A stretch of 64,000 bases of DNA, from assembly GCA_028718185.1 (NCBI GenBank), contig JAQUMH010000001.1, positions 653,186-717,185 on the forward strand. The letters run 5' to 3'. A program made the translations under genes and the position numbers. Origin of the DNA: Elusimicrobiota bacterium. GTDB lineage: Bacteria; Elusimicrobiota; UBA8919. Shown one piece after another: positions 19,144 through 42,292 of this stretch. The stretch's first letter is position 1; the number at the start of each line of letters is the position of its first letter. Below the pieces are notes generated by a model. That model was not told the DNA's origin and searched no databases. It saw only the letters and a list, made by a program, of their open reading frames with translations.

Positions 19144-19275
19144 TTCCCCTCATCTTTCATCTTCTTCTTTATGGGAAAAGAAAGAAGCGGGACCATTACT
19201 TTAACTTCTTATCGGGTGAGCAAGCTCACCCCTACGCGTTCATCTTCTCCCCTATGGGGAGAAGAAAGAGTTGAG
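19144..19275. repeat. Dispersed repeat with GGTGAGCAAGCTCACC and CTCCCCTATGGGGAG palindromes
   Basis: Holds GGGTGAGCAAGCTCACCCCT followed by ACGCG and the palindrome TCTCCCCTATGGGGAGA with AGAAAGAG. Relatives lie at 34689-34785, 40160-40312 and 42177-42292. The gap between the gldG-like and DUF4340 genes contains nothing else recognisable. Confidence 0.65.
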
Positions 19276-33525: not shown

Positions 33526-33627
33526 TTTTCCCTATATCTATATTATTATATATAACGGACTTTTTACTTTATGTCAATGGCTTTTTGAAACTTTTTTACC
33601 TTCCGAAATATATCCCCCATTTAGTTA

Positions 33628-33653
33628 GACGAACAACTTTCAAAAACTCTGCA
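33628..33653 (-). promoter_or_regulatory. ECF-sigma-type promoter for the giant surface-protein gene
   Basis: On the minus strand TGCAGA (33653-33648) is followed after exactly 16 nt by CGTC (33631-33628). The same hexamer, spacing and flanks recur before the ECF sigma gene. This matches the layout of ECF promoters (TGMAAC-N16-CGTM). The leader to the start codon would be about 95 nt. Confidence 0.65.
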
Positions 33654-33678
33654 TTGAAAATTATTTTTTTTCATATTA

Positions 33679-34575
33679 TTAATCCTTACTGATTACTACA
33701 ATATGGTACGGTTGAGTAAGTTGCTGGGTGACGGTGGTGTTTGGTGATGGGACTGTTTCTACTGTTTCTATGTAGATATTGCTGTCTGTTTCTTCTATTT
33801 CTGATATTTGTATTCCGTAACCGCCGGTTTTTTGCTCGCCCATAAAAACTGCTATAACAATTTCTTTGTTGAAATCTATTTCGGGAATAGAACCTGTTTT
33901 GCCTGTGTGTGTTTCCCACAGGGCCTGCCATTCTTTCTGTGTTTTTATAACTAAGGATTTTTTTGTCTTTATACCGCTGTTTGTATCCTGCCATTGTTTA
34001 AGGATTCTTTTTGTTTTATATTTTGGTCCCGCACCCCTGAGTATAACCTGACTGTCTTTCCCAACATCAGCTTTGGCGAATTCTATTGTTCTTATTATTT
34101 CTTTTCGTTGTCCCTTAATGGTGGTTTTTTTGTTGATTTCTTTTATTTTAGATGCTACTTTGATTTGTGGTTGTGGACTACTTGCTTTTTCTACATTGGT
34201 CACGGTTGGCGCATTAGCAACTAACACTGTTTTATCTTTTTTGAATGTAAAACATACTATACCAACCAACAATATAATCACGGTCGCTGAAATTGGTATG
34301 AATATATTATGTTTTATTCCAAGAAATGGATGTTTATTTGATTCGAGTACGGTTTGAGCAGCGTCAAGTTTAAGTCCGAATTTCTGGTAATAATCTGCAG
34401 GAAGTTCTTTTTCGTTTACTGTTTTAAGTAAATTGATGGTAGTTTTAAATTCTTCTAAAAACTGTGAGCAATCTTTACAATGCTGGATATGGACATGGAC
34501 TTCTTCTTTTAGTTTGGGGTCTAGTTTATCTTCCAGATAAAGTGATAATAAATCCTGTATTTTTTCGCAATTCAT
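33679..34575 (-). CDS. Anti-sigma factor with zinc-finger and PrcB-like C-terminal domain
   Basis: A 298-residue membrane protein. The N-terminal cytoplasmic part is a zf-HC2 anti-sigma domain (MNCEKIQDLLSLYLEDKLD and HVHIQHCKDCSQF with the H-x3-C-x2-C zinc ligands). A transmembrane helix follows at ~90-112 (IFIPISATVIILLVGIVCF). The periplasmic part ends in a PrcB_C-like domain (KEIVIAVFMGEQKTGGYGIQ, then a strand-rich end). It probably binds and silences the ECF sigma factor encoded upstream until an envelope signal releases it. The sigma gene ends 232 nt upstream, with a repeat in between. Confidence 0.85.
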   Translation of the reverse strand: MNCEKIQDLLSLYLEDKLDPKLKEEVHVHIQHCKDCSQFLEEFKTTINLLKTVNEKELPADYYQKFGLKLDAAQTVLESNKHPFLGIKHNIFIPISATVIILLVGIVCFTFKKDKTVLVANAPTVTNVEKASSPQPQIKVASKIKEINKKTTIKGQRKEIIRTIEFAKADVGKDSQVILRGAGPKYKTKRILKQWQDTNSGIKTKKSLVIKTQKEWQALWETHTGKTGSIPEIDFNKEIVIAVFMGEQKTGGYGIQISEIEETDSNIYIETVETVPSPNTTVTQQLTQPYHIVVISKD

Positions 34576-34688
34576 AATTTTACCTCTGGCATGAAAATAT
34601 GTAATGTGCGATGTGTGAAGTGTAATGAATAACTAAAAACACATTATATTTTTTCATATCTATTAATCTATTTTTTAACATTAACTGA

Positions 34689-34785
34689 CTTTGGGCGGGC
34701 AAGCCCGCCCCTACGCGTAAGTAACAAACATTTTGTACATCAACTCATAGCACCGCAAGGCGGTGCGACTACAAATATGGCTTAA
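34689..34785. repeat. Two perfect palindromes between sigma and anti-sigma genes
   Basis: GGGCGGGCAAGCCCGCCC followed by CTACGCG, and GCACCGCAAGGCGGTGC followed by GACTACA. These have the same borders (CTACGCG, CTACA) as the other dispersed palindromes but different stems. Nothing else is recognisable in the 232-nt gap. Confidence 0.65.
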
Positions 34786-34807
34786 TCCATTCATAGAGAG
34801 GGGATGT

Positions 34808-35389
34808 TTATTGTTTTGGCTCTATGTATGGTTTGAGATGTTTGTTCATCTCTTTTATTCCTCTTGTTAATCTGGCGCTTATTGTGCCTATGGGACAATT
34901 GCATATTTTCGCAATTTCTTCCAGCGATTTGCCCTCAATATACTTAAGGACAATTGCGATTTTTTGGTCCGGAGTTAAAACATCCAGTGATTTTTTTATA
35001 ATTTTTTCTAATTCTTTGTTTTCCATATTTTGCTCGGCAATTAAACCGGAATCTGCAAACTCTCTTTGGAATTCCCCGCCATCTAATTTTATTGTTTCAT
35101 CAATAGAAGTAAAATTAAGTACCTTTCGCTTCCTTGAAATATCAATCCATAAATTAACTGCAATCTGATGTAACCATGTTGAAAAACTTGATTTCTGTTG
35201 AAAATCCTTTATTGACTGCAGTGCTTTAAGAAGTACATTCTGCGAAAGGTCTTCCGCATCCGTAGTGTTCCCGGAAAGCCGGTAACACAGGTTGTATACT
35301 TCTTTGGCGTATTTTCTAACTAATATATCAAAAGATTCTTTGTTGCCTTGTTTAGCAGAAAGAATTATTTTGTCTTCACTGTAATCCAT
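34808..35389 (-). CDS. ECF-type RNA polymerase sigma factor
   Basis: A 193-residue sigma-70 family protein with region 2 (ESFDILVRKYAKEVYNLCYR, DAEDLSQNVLLKALQSI) and region 4 (LEEIAKICNCPIGTISARLT, a helix-turn-helix); region 3 is absent, as in the ECF group. The anti-sigma gene follows on the same strand. Its own promoter region matches the one before the giant surface-protein gene, so it is probably autoregulated and controls envelope proteins. Start ATG at 35389 with GGAG/AGGG upstream. Confidence 0.92.
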   Translation of the reverse strand: MDYSEDKIILSAKQGNKESFDILVRKYAKEVYNLCYRLSGNTTDAEDLSQNVLLKALQSIKDFQQKSSFSTWLHQIAVNLWIDISRKRKVLNFTSIDETIKLDGGEFQREFADSGLIAEQNMENKELEKIIKKSLDVLTPDQKIAIVLKYIEGKSLEEIAKICNCPIGTISARLTRGIKEMNKHLKPYIEPKQ

Positions 35390-35403
35390 TCCCTACTCCA
35401 TTA

Positions 35404-35429
35404 GACGAACAACTATTAAAAACTCTGCA
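35404..35429 (-). promoter_or_regulatory. ECF-type promoter of the sigma/anti-sigma operon
   Basis: TGCAGA (35429-35424), 16 nt, CGTC (35407-35404) on the minus strand, within a ~40-nt stretch nearly identical to 33628-33653 and flanks. The start codon of the sigma gene lies 15 nt past the -10, giving a very short leader. Confidence 0.65.
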
Positions 35430-35524: not shown

Positions 35525-36379
35525 TCAAATAAACTTCAATATCTCATTGAAGCGTTCAAATACTTTATTTAATTCAAAATTTGTGTTGACTCTGACCACG
35601 GGGAGTAAATCTGTTTCTACCTGATTGTGAAGCATTTTTACTTCTTCTTCGTTTAAACCAAAATCTATTTTATAATCCCTTTTATATTTTTCATGCTCTA
35701 ACTTTTTCCTAAATAAACCGATAAAATGCTTATCAGAAAAATTAAAATCAGATTGTGAAATTTGCCATAAATCATAGTAATCTCGTATTGCAACTTTTTC
35801 CCGTGTTATTGCGGCTCTTAATTTTTCCGCTACTGTTTCTTTTAAAGATAATGACATTATTCTATTTCTTGGCATTATATCTTTCCCGGTAAATGGATCC
35901 TGAAAGAAATGTTTAATTTCATTGTGAACCGGTTTATCAATCGGCAATTGTCTTAATGATATTTCTATTTTTATTCTTTCTTCTTTTCCGGTAATTATTG
36001 AATCATACAAAATAACGAATAAATACTGGGTTGAATTATTAAATCCTTTTCCCCTCGGATTCTCACTTCGTAATTTTATATCAGCTACGAATGTTGCCAT
36101 TTTTTCTCTGATTGGGGCAATGGCTTTGGATCTTTGAGAACGAGTAGTCAGAAGACTATCAGAATAATAGCAAAAATCGAGATCTTCACTTAAACGATTA
36201 TAATTAAGATATATCTTGTTAAGTAGTGTTCCGCCTTTAAATACCAGATTCTTAGTTAAACGTGATTCTATAGAATTTAAGATAACTGTAAGATAATAAT
36301 CTTTTTCTATAATAGCTGTACGAAAATTATATTTCTTTGCAATTACAGGAATTAAATTTTGCAATGTTAGTTTATCCAT
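35525..36379 (-). CDS. AbiEii-family nucleotidyltransferase toxin
   Basis: A 284-residue protein of the AbiEii/AbiGii (DUF1814) family. The nucleotidyltransferase core is visible as VFKGGTLLNKIYLNYNRLSE then DLDFCYY, with the D-x-D metal-binding pair; further family segments are RIKIEISLRQLP and ETVAEKLRAAITREKVAIRDYYDLW. AbiEii toxins transfer nucleotides (shown on tRNA for some homologues) and arrest growth or abort phage infection. The gene overlaps the antitoxin gene upstream by 8 nt, the normal order for type IV AbiE systems. Confidence 0.9.
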   Translation of the reverse strand: MDKLTLQNLIPVIAKKYNFRTAIIEKDYYLTVILNSIESRLTKNLVFKGGTLLNKIYLNYNRLSEDLDFCYYSDSLLTTRSQRSKAIAPIREKMATFVADIKLRSENPRGKGFNNSTQYLFVILYDSIITGKEERIKIEISLRQLPIDKPVHNEIKHFFQDPFTGKDIMPRNRIMSLSLKETVAEKLRAAITREKVAIRDYYDLWQISQSDFNFSDKHFIGLFRKKLEHEKYKRDYKIDFGLNEEEVKMLHNQVETDLLPVVRVNTNFELNKVFERFNEILKFI

Positions 36380-37163
36380 TTATTATAATTCGCCAATTTT
36401 TATCTATTTTTCCCCGGCGATTAGAGTTGTCAGGATTTAGTTTAACAAAAGTCATATCGTTATCTATAGACCTTTTTAATTTTTGCAATAACTCTTTATT
36501 AAAATTTATTTTTTCTAAAAGGTAACCCGCTCTTTTTTTTACTGACGCAACAGGAAACGCAATTAAATATTTAATAAATTTCTGCCGGTCTATTTTACTG
36601 ATATTGGATTCTAATACTTCTTTAATGCTGCCGAATGAAGATATAGGATAATATAAAAAATCAACCAGTGTTCTTTCCCTATCACTAACACTAACATATT
36701 CATTATCTATTTTTATTTTTTTAATACCGTAATATTTTTTATTCTCTATTTTTACCGCTTTATACCTAATACTTCCTATCGTCTTTAAAAAAGATCTTTT
36801 TGTATTCAAAACAAATATTGTATTAGGCACCTGTTCGGTAAAACCCCAATAATTATACATTGTAAAATAGCCGATATAATAAGGTATATCACCCATCCAC
36901 AACTTTGCTGTTATAAACTCATTTGGCGACCATAACTGATTAGGTGCATCAAGAGGAACAATAATATACTTTCCCCTTTCAATCTGTAGAAGCCGCCCTT
37001 TTTTAGTGAGTCTATATAAAACATTCACCGCTTTTCTCTTATCGCCAAATAAAGCTCGCACATATTCTTTAGTAATAAGTTTTTGCTTCTCGTAACCGGC
37101 ACGAGAAATCAGATATACTTCATCTTTAGATAATCCCCTGTAATTATTGTTTTTTTTATTCAT
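36372..37163 (-). CDS. AbiEi-family antitoxin / autorepressor
   Basis: A 263-residue protein with the AbiEi layout: an N-terminal winged-helix region (LSKDEVYLISRAGYEKQKL, TKKGRLLQIERGKYIIVP) and a larger C-terminal domain with the pattern YYIGYFTMYNYWGFTEQVPN and SVSDRERTLVDFLYYP. AbiEi neutralises the AbiEii toxin and represses its own operon by binding inverted repeats. I start at the ATG at 37163; an in-frame TTG six codons upstream overlaps the operator. The operator palindrome is 18 nt before the start. Confidence 0.88.
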   Translation of the reverse strand: MNKKNNNYRGLSKDEVYLISRAGYEKQKLITKEYVRALFGDKRKAVNVLYRLTKKGRLLQIERGKYIIVPLDAPNQLWSPNEFITAKLWMGDIPYYIGYFTMYNYWGFTEQVPNTIFVLNTKRSFLKTIGSIRYKAVKIENKKYYGIKKIKIDNEYVSVSDRERTLVDFLYYPISSFGSIKEVLESNISKIDRQKFIKYLIAFPVASVKKRAGYLLEKINFNKELLQKLKRSIDNDMTFVKLNPDNSNRRGKIDKNWRIIING

Positions 37164-37180
37164 TGTATTGCGTTTTACCA

Positions 37181-37199
37181 ATTCTCATATTATGAGAAT
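37181..37199. promoter_or_regulatory. Palindromic operator of the AbiE operon
   Basis: ATTCTCATA-T-TATGAGAAT is a perfect inverted repeat with 9-bp arms. It lies just downstream of the predicted -10, about +10 to +28 of the transcript, where a bound repressor would block transcription. AbiEi is the likely ligand, as autoregulation is known for this family. Confidence 0.7.
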
Positions 37200-42176: not shown

Positions 42177-42292
42177 TTACTGCGGATTGCCAAGGGCAAT
42201 CCACTACATTAATTTCTTTTTGGGTGAGCAAGCTCACCCCTACGCGATCATCCTCTATCCGTTGGAGAGAAGAAAAAATTTAAGGGTATGCG
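42177..42292. repeat. Dispersed repeat cluster, second copy
   Basis: GGATTGCCAAGGGCAATCC-ACTACAT, then GGGTGAGCAAGCTCACCCCT-ACGCGATCATC and a decayed TCTATCCGTTGGAGAGA palindrome. Just upstream (42087-42112) is CCGCCACTAAATCTTTGGTGG, another dispersed palindrome. The gap 42069-42310 has no gene. Confidence 0.65.

Follow-up and report, generated by a model that had tools for sequence, protein, structure and literature searches.

An ECF sigma factor gene in this Elusimicrobiota genome (G000; 3.03 Mb, 97% complete) is preceded by a 29-nt element, TGCAGRGTTTTT-N10-CGTCTAA, that is found in exactly three copies in the whole genome, the other two lying upstream of surface-protein genes, one the giant gene of 2502 codons and the other on a different contig. 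Very probably the three copies are promoters of this sigma factor, which, once freed by an envelope signal, would transcribe its own operon and the cargo/PorV genes. The first-pass annotation had predicted that the sigma factor drives itself, its anti-sigma partner and the giant gene, and this stands as the best reading; from sequence we infer recognition of the element by this sigma factor, positive autoregulation and release by an envelope signal. Several genera share the predicted circuit, which is linked to components of a type IX-like secretion pathway (T9SS). For a phylum in which genetics hardly exists, it provides a sequence-defined candidate regulon of an ECF sigma factor, and the putative promoter signature, lacking the AAC typical of ECF -35 boxes, could be tested in E. 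coli. The window mentioned below is the whole stretch analysed, 64,000 nucleotides of contig 1 (bases 653186-717185), and its features are collected in Table 1.

Table 1 Features of the sigma factor locus and the third copy of the element (window positions unless a contig is given)
Feature	Position	Strand	Remarks
Putative ECF promoter P1 (TGCAGAGTTTTTAATAGTTGTTCGTCTAA)	35401..35429	-	5' end 40 nt upstream of sigma ATG at 35389
ECF sigma factor, 193 aa	34808..35389	-	PF04542, PF08281; TIGR02937 over cutoff; ortholog alignment; tree
REP-like palindrome	34693..34714	-	In the 232 nt that separate sigma and anti-sigma genes
Anti-sigma factor, 298 aa	33679..34575	-	PF13490 and PF14343 over cutoff
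Putative ECF promoter P2 (TGCAGAGTTTTTGAAAGTTGTTCGTCTAA)	33625..33653	-	Upstream of giant gene
Sigma-70-type promoter-like site, TTGACA-N17-TATATA	33549..33577	-	Between P2 and giant gene; 0.04 expected in window
Giant gene, 2502 codons	26017..33525	-	From GTG 33525; likely start ATG 33519
PorV-family barrel + transglutaminase-like domain (PorV/TG), 666 aa	23929..25929	-	NF033709 163.6 bits, cutoff 90
Third copy of the element	contig 2, 43197-43225 (L015 13198-13226)	-	Upstream of 1074-aa protein gene

The element in the source genome

Both coordinates annotated for the motif TGCAGA-N16-CGTC, 35429-35404 and 33653-33628 (minus strand), are exact. They are its only sites in the window, where shuffled sequences gave an expectation of 0.02. 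The similar flanks also noticed at that stage span about -10 to +30 of the motif, with background beyond, and the sequence shared by both sites is longer than the motif first described (TGCAGAGTTTTTnnnAGTTGTTCGTCTAA). P2 is located 26 nt beyond the anti-sigma stop codon and ~134 nt upstream of the likely giant-gene ATG. The genome-wide scan proposed in the first-pass annotation gave six exact-N16 matches of the short motif against ~2 by chance, three being unrelated matches; with spacings of N15-17 there were 11 matches versus 8 in the reversed control, and the short motif is not diagnostic alone. Given ~2 chance matches per genome it was dropped as a genome-wide predictor and the evidence rests on the long form, for which 7e-5 copies are expected by chance per genome. 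Allowing up to 3 mismatches still recovered only the three copies, with 0 in the reversed control.

The early hallmarks of ECF promoters were AAC at -35 and CGT at -10 (PMC8103513). The agreement with the pattern TGMAAC-N16-CGTM claimed previously holds for the CGTC -10 box and the N16 spacing but breaks down at the -35 box, TGCAGR, that has no AAC. Actually, the ECF definition was later narrowed to domain content (PMC8103513), so that the missing AAC is no bar to ECF membership. Other ECF genes of these and related genomes have TGGAAC-N16-CGTCTAA (source genome, contig 7), TGGAAC-N16-TGTCTAA (G001) or TGGAAT-N16-TGTCTAA (G337, contig 8), all at the same distance to the gene. These TGGAAC-like boxes with the same position and spacing indicate that the 29-nt elements are ECF promoters. 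However, a minimal ECF promoter would be shorter and less conserved than the element, which includes a T-tract 3' of the -35 box (AGTTGTT in the source genome); a mobile repeat, an operator or a short leader ORF might suit this better than a promoter. We regard this as highly improbable, since the -35/-10 spacing is fixed, the distance to the start codon equals that of the other ECF promoters and every copy that the source genome yields with as many as 3 mismatches allowed lies in a related context. A leader ORF was rejected specifically because reading frames and stops vary among copies, with no frame common to all.

Downstream of the third copy is a gene whose predicted product, 1074 aa long, would be a secreted beta-propeller protein and has a FlgD-like C-terminus; next come a PorV-family gene and very large surface-protein genes. 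Its leader is long (~600 nt), a point against the promoter reading, because a duplicated intergenic block of ~460 nt sits between element and gene. This block, ~90% identical at two places of contig 2 (L015 12657-13115 and L106 2628-3050), contains sigma-70-like promoter sites. In L015, Rfam gave no matches to known RNA elements near the third site.

Conservation across Elusimicrobiota

We surveyed 341 Elusimicrobiota genomes, five with the sigma/PrcB_C anti-sigma pair and 336 others. The five (G000, G005, G040, G272 and G337) belong to five genera and three families, and full-length anti-sigma orthologs beyond the source genome were found in G005, G040, G272 (two copies) and G337. All five carry the element before the sigma gene, 40-43 nt upstream of the start codon and with invariant -35/-10 spacing (TGCAGAGTTTTTGGAATTAATACGTCTAA in G005, TGCAGGGTTTTTAATAGTTAAGCGTCTAA in G040, TGCAGAGTTTATGGGAGTTACGCGTCTAA at the main copy of G272 and TGCAGAGTTGTAAAAAATGATACGTCTAA in G337). 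The second copy of the pair in G272 has a variant, TGCAAA-N16-TGTCTAA, in its place. Searching with TGCAGRGTTTWT-N10-CGTCTAA and at most 1 mismatch returned nine matches, seven of them in the ortholog-bearing genomes, one in G002 and one, with 1 mismatch, in G119. That is, the element was present in 5/5 genomes with the anti-sigma ortholog versus 2/336 without it (Fisher's test, 6e-10, or 1e-7 when strict-pattern matches alone are counted, G337 then being missed; the genomes are related, so both figures overstate independence). The G119 match was treated as a chance stray, and so were weak matches with 2 mismatches in G012, G015, G024 and G046. G005 has a second site, with 1 mismatch, at a contig end. 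The element stands before the sigma gene in 5/5 genomes, with invariant spacing and where other ECF promoters lie in this phylum, and almost every genome lacking the sigma factor lacks the element too; this argues for autocontrol together with control of the giant gene.

The sites could also be genuine ECF promoters used by a different ECF sigma factor, the adjacent one being a target and not the driver. The source genome does contain nine ECF sigma matches at E<=1e-10, and in G002, a 91% complete genome where no sigma ortholog was detected, a site precedes genes for a surface protein (773 aa) and for PorV/TG and has no sigma gene in its vicinity. However, G001 and G004, which have other ECFs but lack the pair, have no copy of the element, the paralogs have their own different -35 elements, and the element and the sigma clade are conserved together; we consider a different driver very improbable.

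Relatives found with the anti-sigma protein as query include the Elusimicrobia MAGs RIFOXYD2_FULL_34_15, RIFOXYB2_FULL_48_7 and RIFOXYA2_FULL_39_19, and in whole-genome searches the MAGs found with this protein fall in the phylum of the window. A phage or mobile origin was discarded, the anti-sigma protein having no relatives in viral contigs.

The sigma and anti-sigma factors

The sigma factor contains only sigma-70 regions 2 (Sigma70_r2) and 4 (Sigma70_r4_2) joined by a short linker, as defines an ECF factor, and the cognate anti-sigma gene is adjacent in 5/5 genomes. Its region 4.2 helix reads ...CPIGTISARLTRGIKEM. The sigmas of the five pair-bearing genomes form one clade in the tree (support 94/90), and the comparison of predicted promoters shows that the unusual -35 box without AAC is what is specific to this clade. 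The -35 recognition helix is GT[IVM]S[AS]R[LI][TS]RG in the five sigmas, GT[IV]KSR in the paralogs with TGGAAC-type promoters and GT[IV]GSR in the nearest other paralogs, a difference that, in few and related sequences, fits a change of specificity.

The anti-sigma factor has the layout of the ZAS proteins, zf-HC2 with Hx3Cx2C followed by one TM helix (about 88-111, read from the sequence), with a PrcB_C domain at the C-terminus. PF13490 scored 36.8 bits (cutoff 22.2) and PF14343 62.1 bits (cutoff 24); the match to the PrcB equivalog NF033596 was below cutoff. In the zinc motif H29-x3-C33-x2-C36 the residues H29, C33 and C36 are invariant. The N-terminus had weak Foldseek matches to RsiW and RslA, and with low confidence AlphaFold models (mean pLDDT 54, and 55 for PorV/TG) fold matches only back up the profile hits. 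Related PrcB_C anti-sigmas are also found in G001, G006 and G031, at loci without cargo module or motif. The REP-like palindrome in the gap between both genes, whose family (GTAGGGGYGGGCTTGCCCRCCC) has two variant copies elsewhere in the window (19214-19235 and 42222-42243), might uncouple their expression. Directly upstream of the sigma operon there is an AbiEii/AbiEi-type toxin-antitoxin pair (35525-37181).

Surface-protein cargo and type IX-like secretion genes

The giant protein has a polytopic N-terminus, TPRs, Kelch repeats, an Ig-like domain and a C-terminal T9SS type A sorting tail (TIGR04183, 30.4 bits, cutoff 23). Other predicted cargos matched TIGR04183 below cutoff, had FlgD_ig only, or neither. 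A polytopic membrane N-terminus with TPRs has apparently been fused to a Kelch/Ig cargo with a T9SS tail, an N-terminal membrane domain being odd for T9SS cargo; this part resembles the TMTC-type glycosyltransferases. When the junction (TPR/downstream) was used as query for the fusion in relatives, matches covered the N-terminal TPR-like part only, and no relative showed the fusion.

The 666-aa protein belongs to the PorV/PorQ family and its profile matched the T9SS translocon PorV (6h3i_F, 1.4e-12), which was also the best Foldseek match. Transglut_core matches were weak, in 6/7 relatives, with the Cys conserved in 6/7 and the His in 7/7. Orthologs are found in L037, L058, L064, L079 and L080, with an invariant PPSPY near the C-terminus; the paralog at L064 233-2113 has lost the Cys and one in L080 most of the N-terminal half of the barrel. 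In G040, G272 and G337 the gene order is sigma, anti-sigma, large surface protein and PorV/TG with no internal site after the anti-sigma gene, whereas the cargo gene in the window has its own copy of the element. By sequence, the targets resemble a module for type IX-type secretion, a cargo with sorting tail plus a PorV-barrel/transglutaminase-like protein.

The sigma-70-type site between P2 and the giant gene is likely a second, constitutive promoter, and with such a housekeeping-type promoter the giant gene would probably not depend solely on the sigma factor, basal expression without it being likely. Furthermore, a perfect TTGACA-N16-TATAAT lies immediately before the 1074-aa gene. Both sites, and the cargo genes directly following the anti-sigma gene in G040, G272 and G337, would also be compatible with P2 and the third site being relics of operon duplication or rearrangement, with housekeeping promoters and P1 read-through mainly driving the surface-protein genes. 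We find this improbable, given that the full consensus is kept in both cargo copies of the source genome and also in the G002 copy, whose cargo gene has no sigma gene close by, what suggests selection.

A divergent SprA/Sov-like protein of 1726 aa is encoded beside glycolytic genes on contig 12 of the source genome (L101 1126-6306), with SprA_N over the Pfam cutoff and TIGR04189 at 6e-35 but below cutoff, suggesting T9SS-type secretion in Elusimicrobiota. The search for Peptidase_C25 (PorU sortase) gave no match, and neither did the control genomes. Contig 7 has a second ECF/anti-sigma pair (L044, 12000-18500), and the genes after it encode a surface protein whose T9SS tail scores near the cutoff and a PorV-family protein. 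The promoter of this locus is the canonical TGGAAC-N16-CGTCTAA and it is possibly a parallel cargo regulon.

A recent review assigns T9SS to the Fibrobacteres-Bacteroidetes-Chlorobi group (PMC11205867), and no papers on T9SS regulation in Elusimicrobiota were found among the open-licence literature. The source genome, which has a SprA-like gene, lies outside that group, and one regulator would control both its T9SS-type cargo and a protein of PorV type.

Proposed circuit and comparison with known systems

In the circuit that we propose, the membrane anti-sigma factor (zf-HC2, TM, PrcB_C) would hold the sigma factor at the inner membrane until an envelope signal frees it. Once free, the sigma factor would transcribe the operon that encodes it as well as the giant gene and the contig 2 gene, so that its targets would include large surface proteins of T9SS type and the PorV-like protein that accompanies them. 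In Bacteroidota the shuttle and attachment roles are split between PorV and PorU. It is conceivable, if rather unlikely, that this lineage-specific non-AAC ECF clade is a secretion-coupled switch, in which PrcB_C keeps track of either T9SS cargo in the periplasm or the PorV-transglutaminase protein, the sigma factor fits cargo production to secretion capacity and the PorV-transglutaminase fusion unites the shuttle and attachment roles.

The circuit would work like a classical autoregulated ECF/anti-sigma pair. Like the SigW-RsiW type (ECF/ZAS operons), it has a two-domain sigma factor, an adjacent membrane anti-sigma factor with a zinc-binding cytoplasmic domain and a putative autopromoter whose CGTC -10 box lies at N16 spacing; unlike it, the -35 box is TGCAGR-GTT without AAC, the periplasmic domain is PrcB_C and the predicted regulon consists of T9SS-type cargo. 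T9SS genes of Porphyromonas gingivalis, porV among them, are likewise regulated by an ECF sigma system, SigP-PorXY (PMC4800418). However, SigP acts with the response regulator PorX, an anti-sigma factor is unmentioned in the text of that paper, and its proposed promoter motif differs from TGCAGR-N16-CGTCTAA; the predicted targets here are Elusimicrobiota genes for cargo and PorV-like proteins. Treponema denticola PrcB likewise carries PrcB_C at the cell envelope, yet as a lipoprotein interacting with the PrtP protease, which requires it (PMC8167434), whereas here PrcB_C is the predicted periplasmic end of an anti-sigma factor. By analogy with this partner of a surface protease, PrcB_C might bind exported proteins, and the role as sensor suggested in the first-pass annotation, perhaps of cargo or of the secretion state, is a plausible lead. 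Finally, the barrel of the 666-aa protein matches that of the T9SS PorV by profile and fold, but the protein adds a C-terminal beta domain and the transglutaminase-like domain outside the PorV match.
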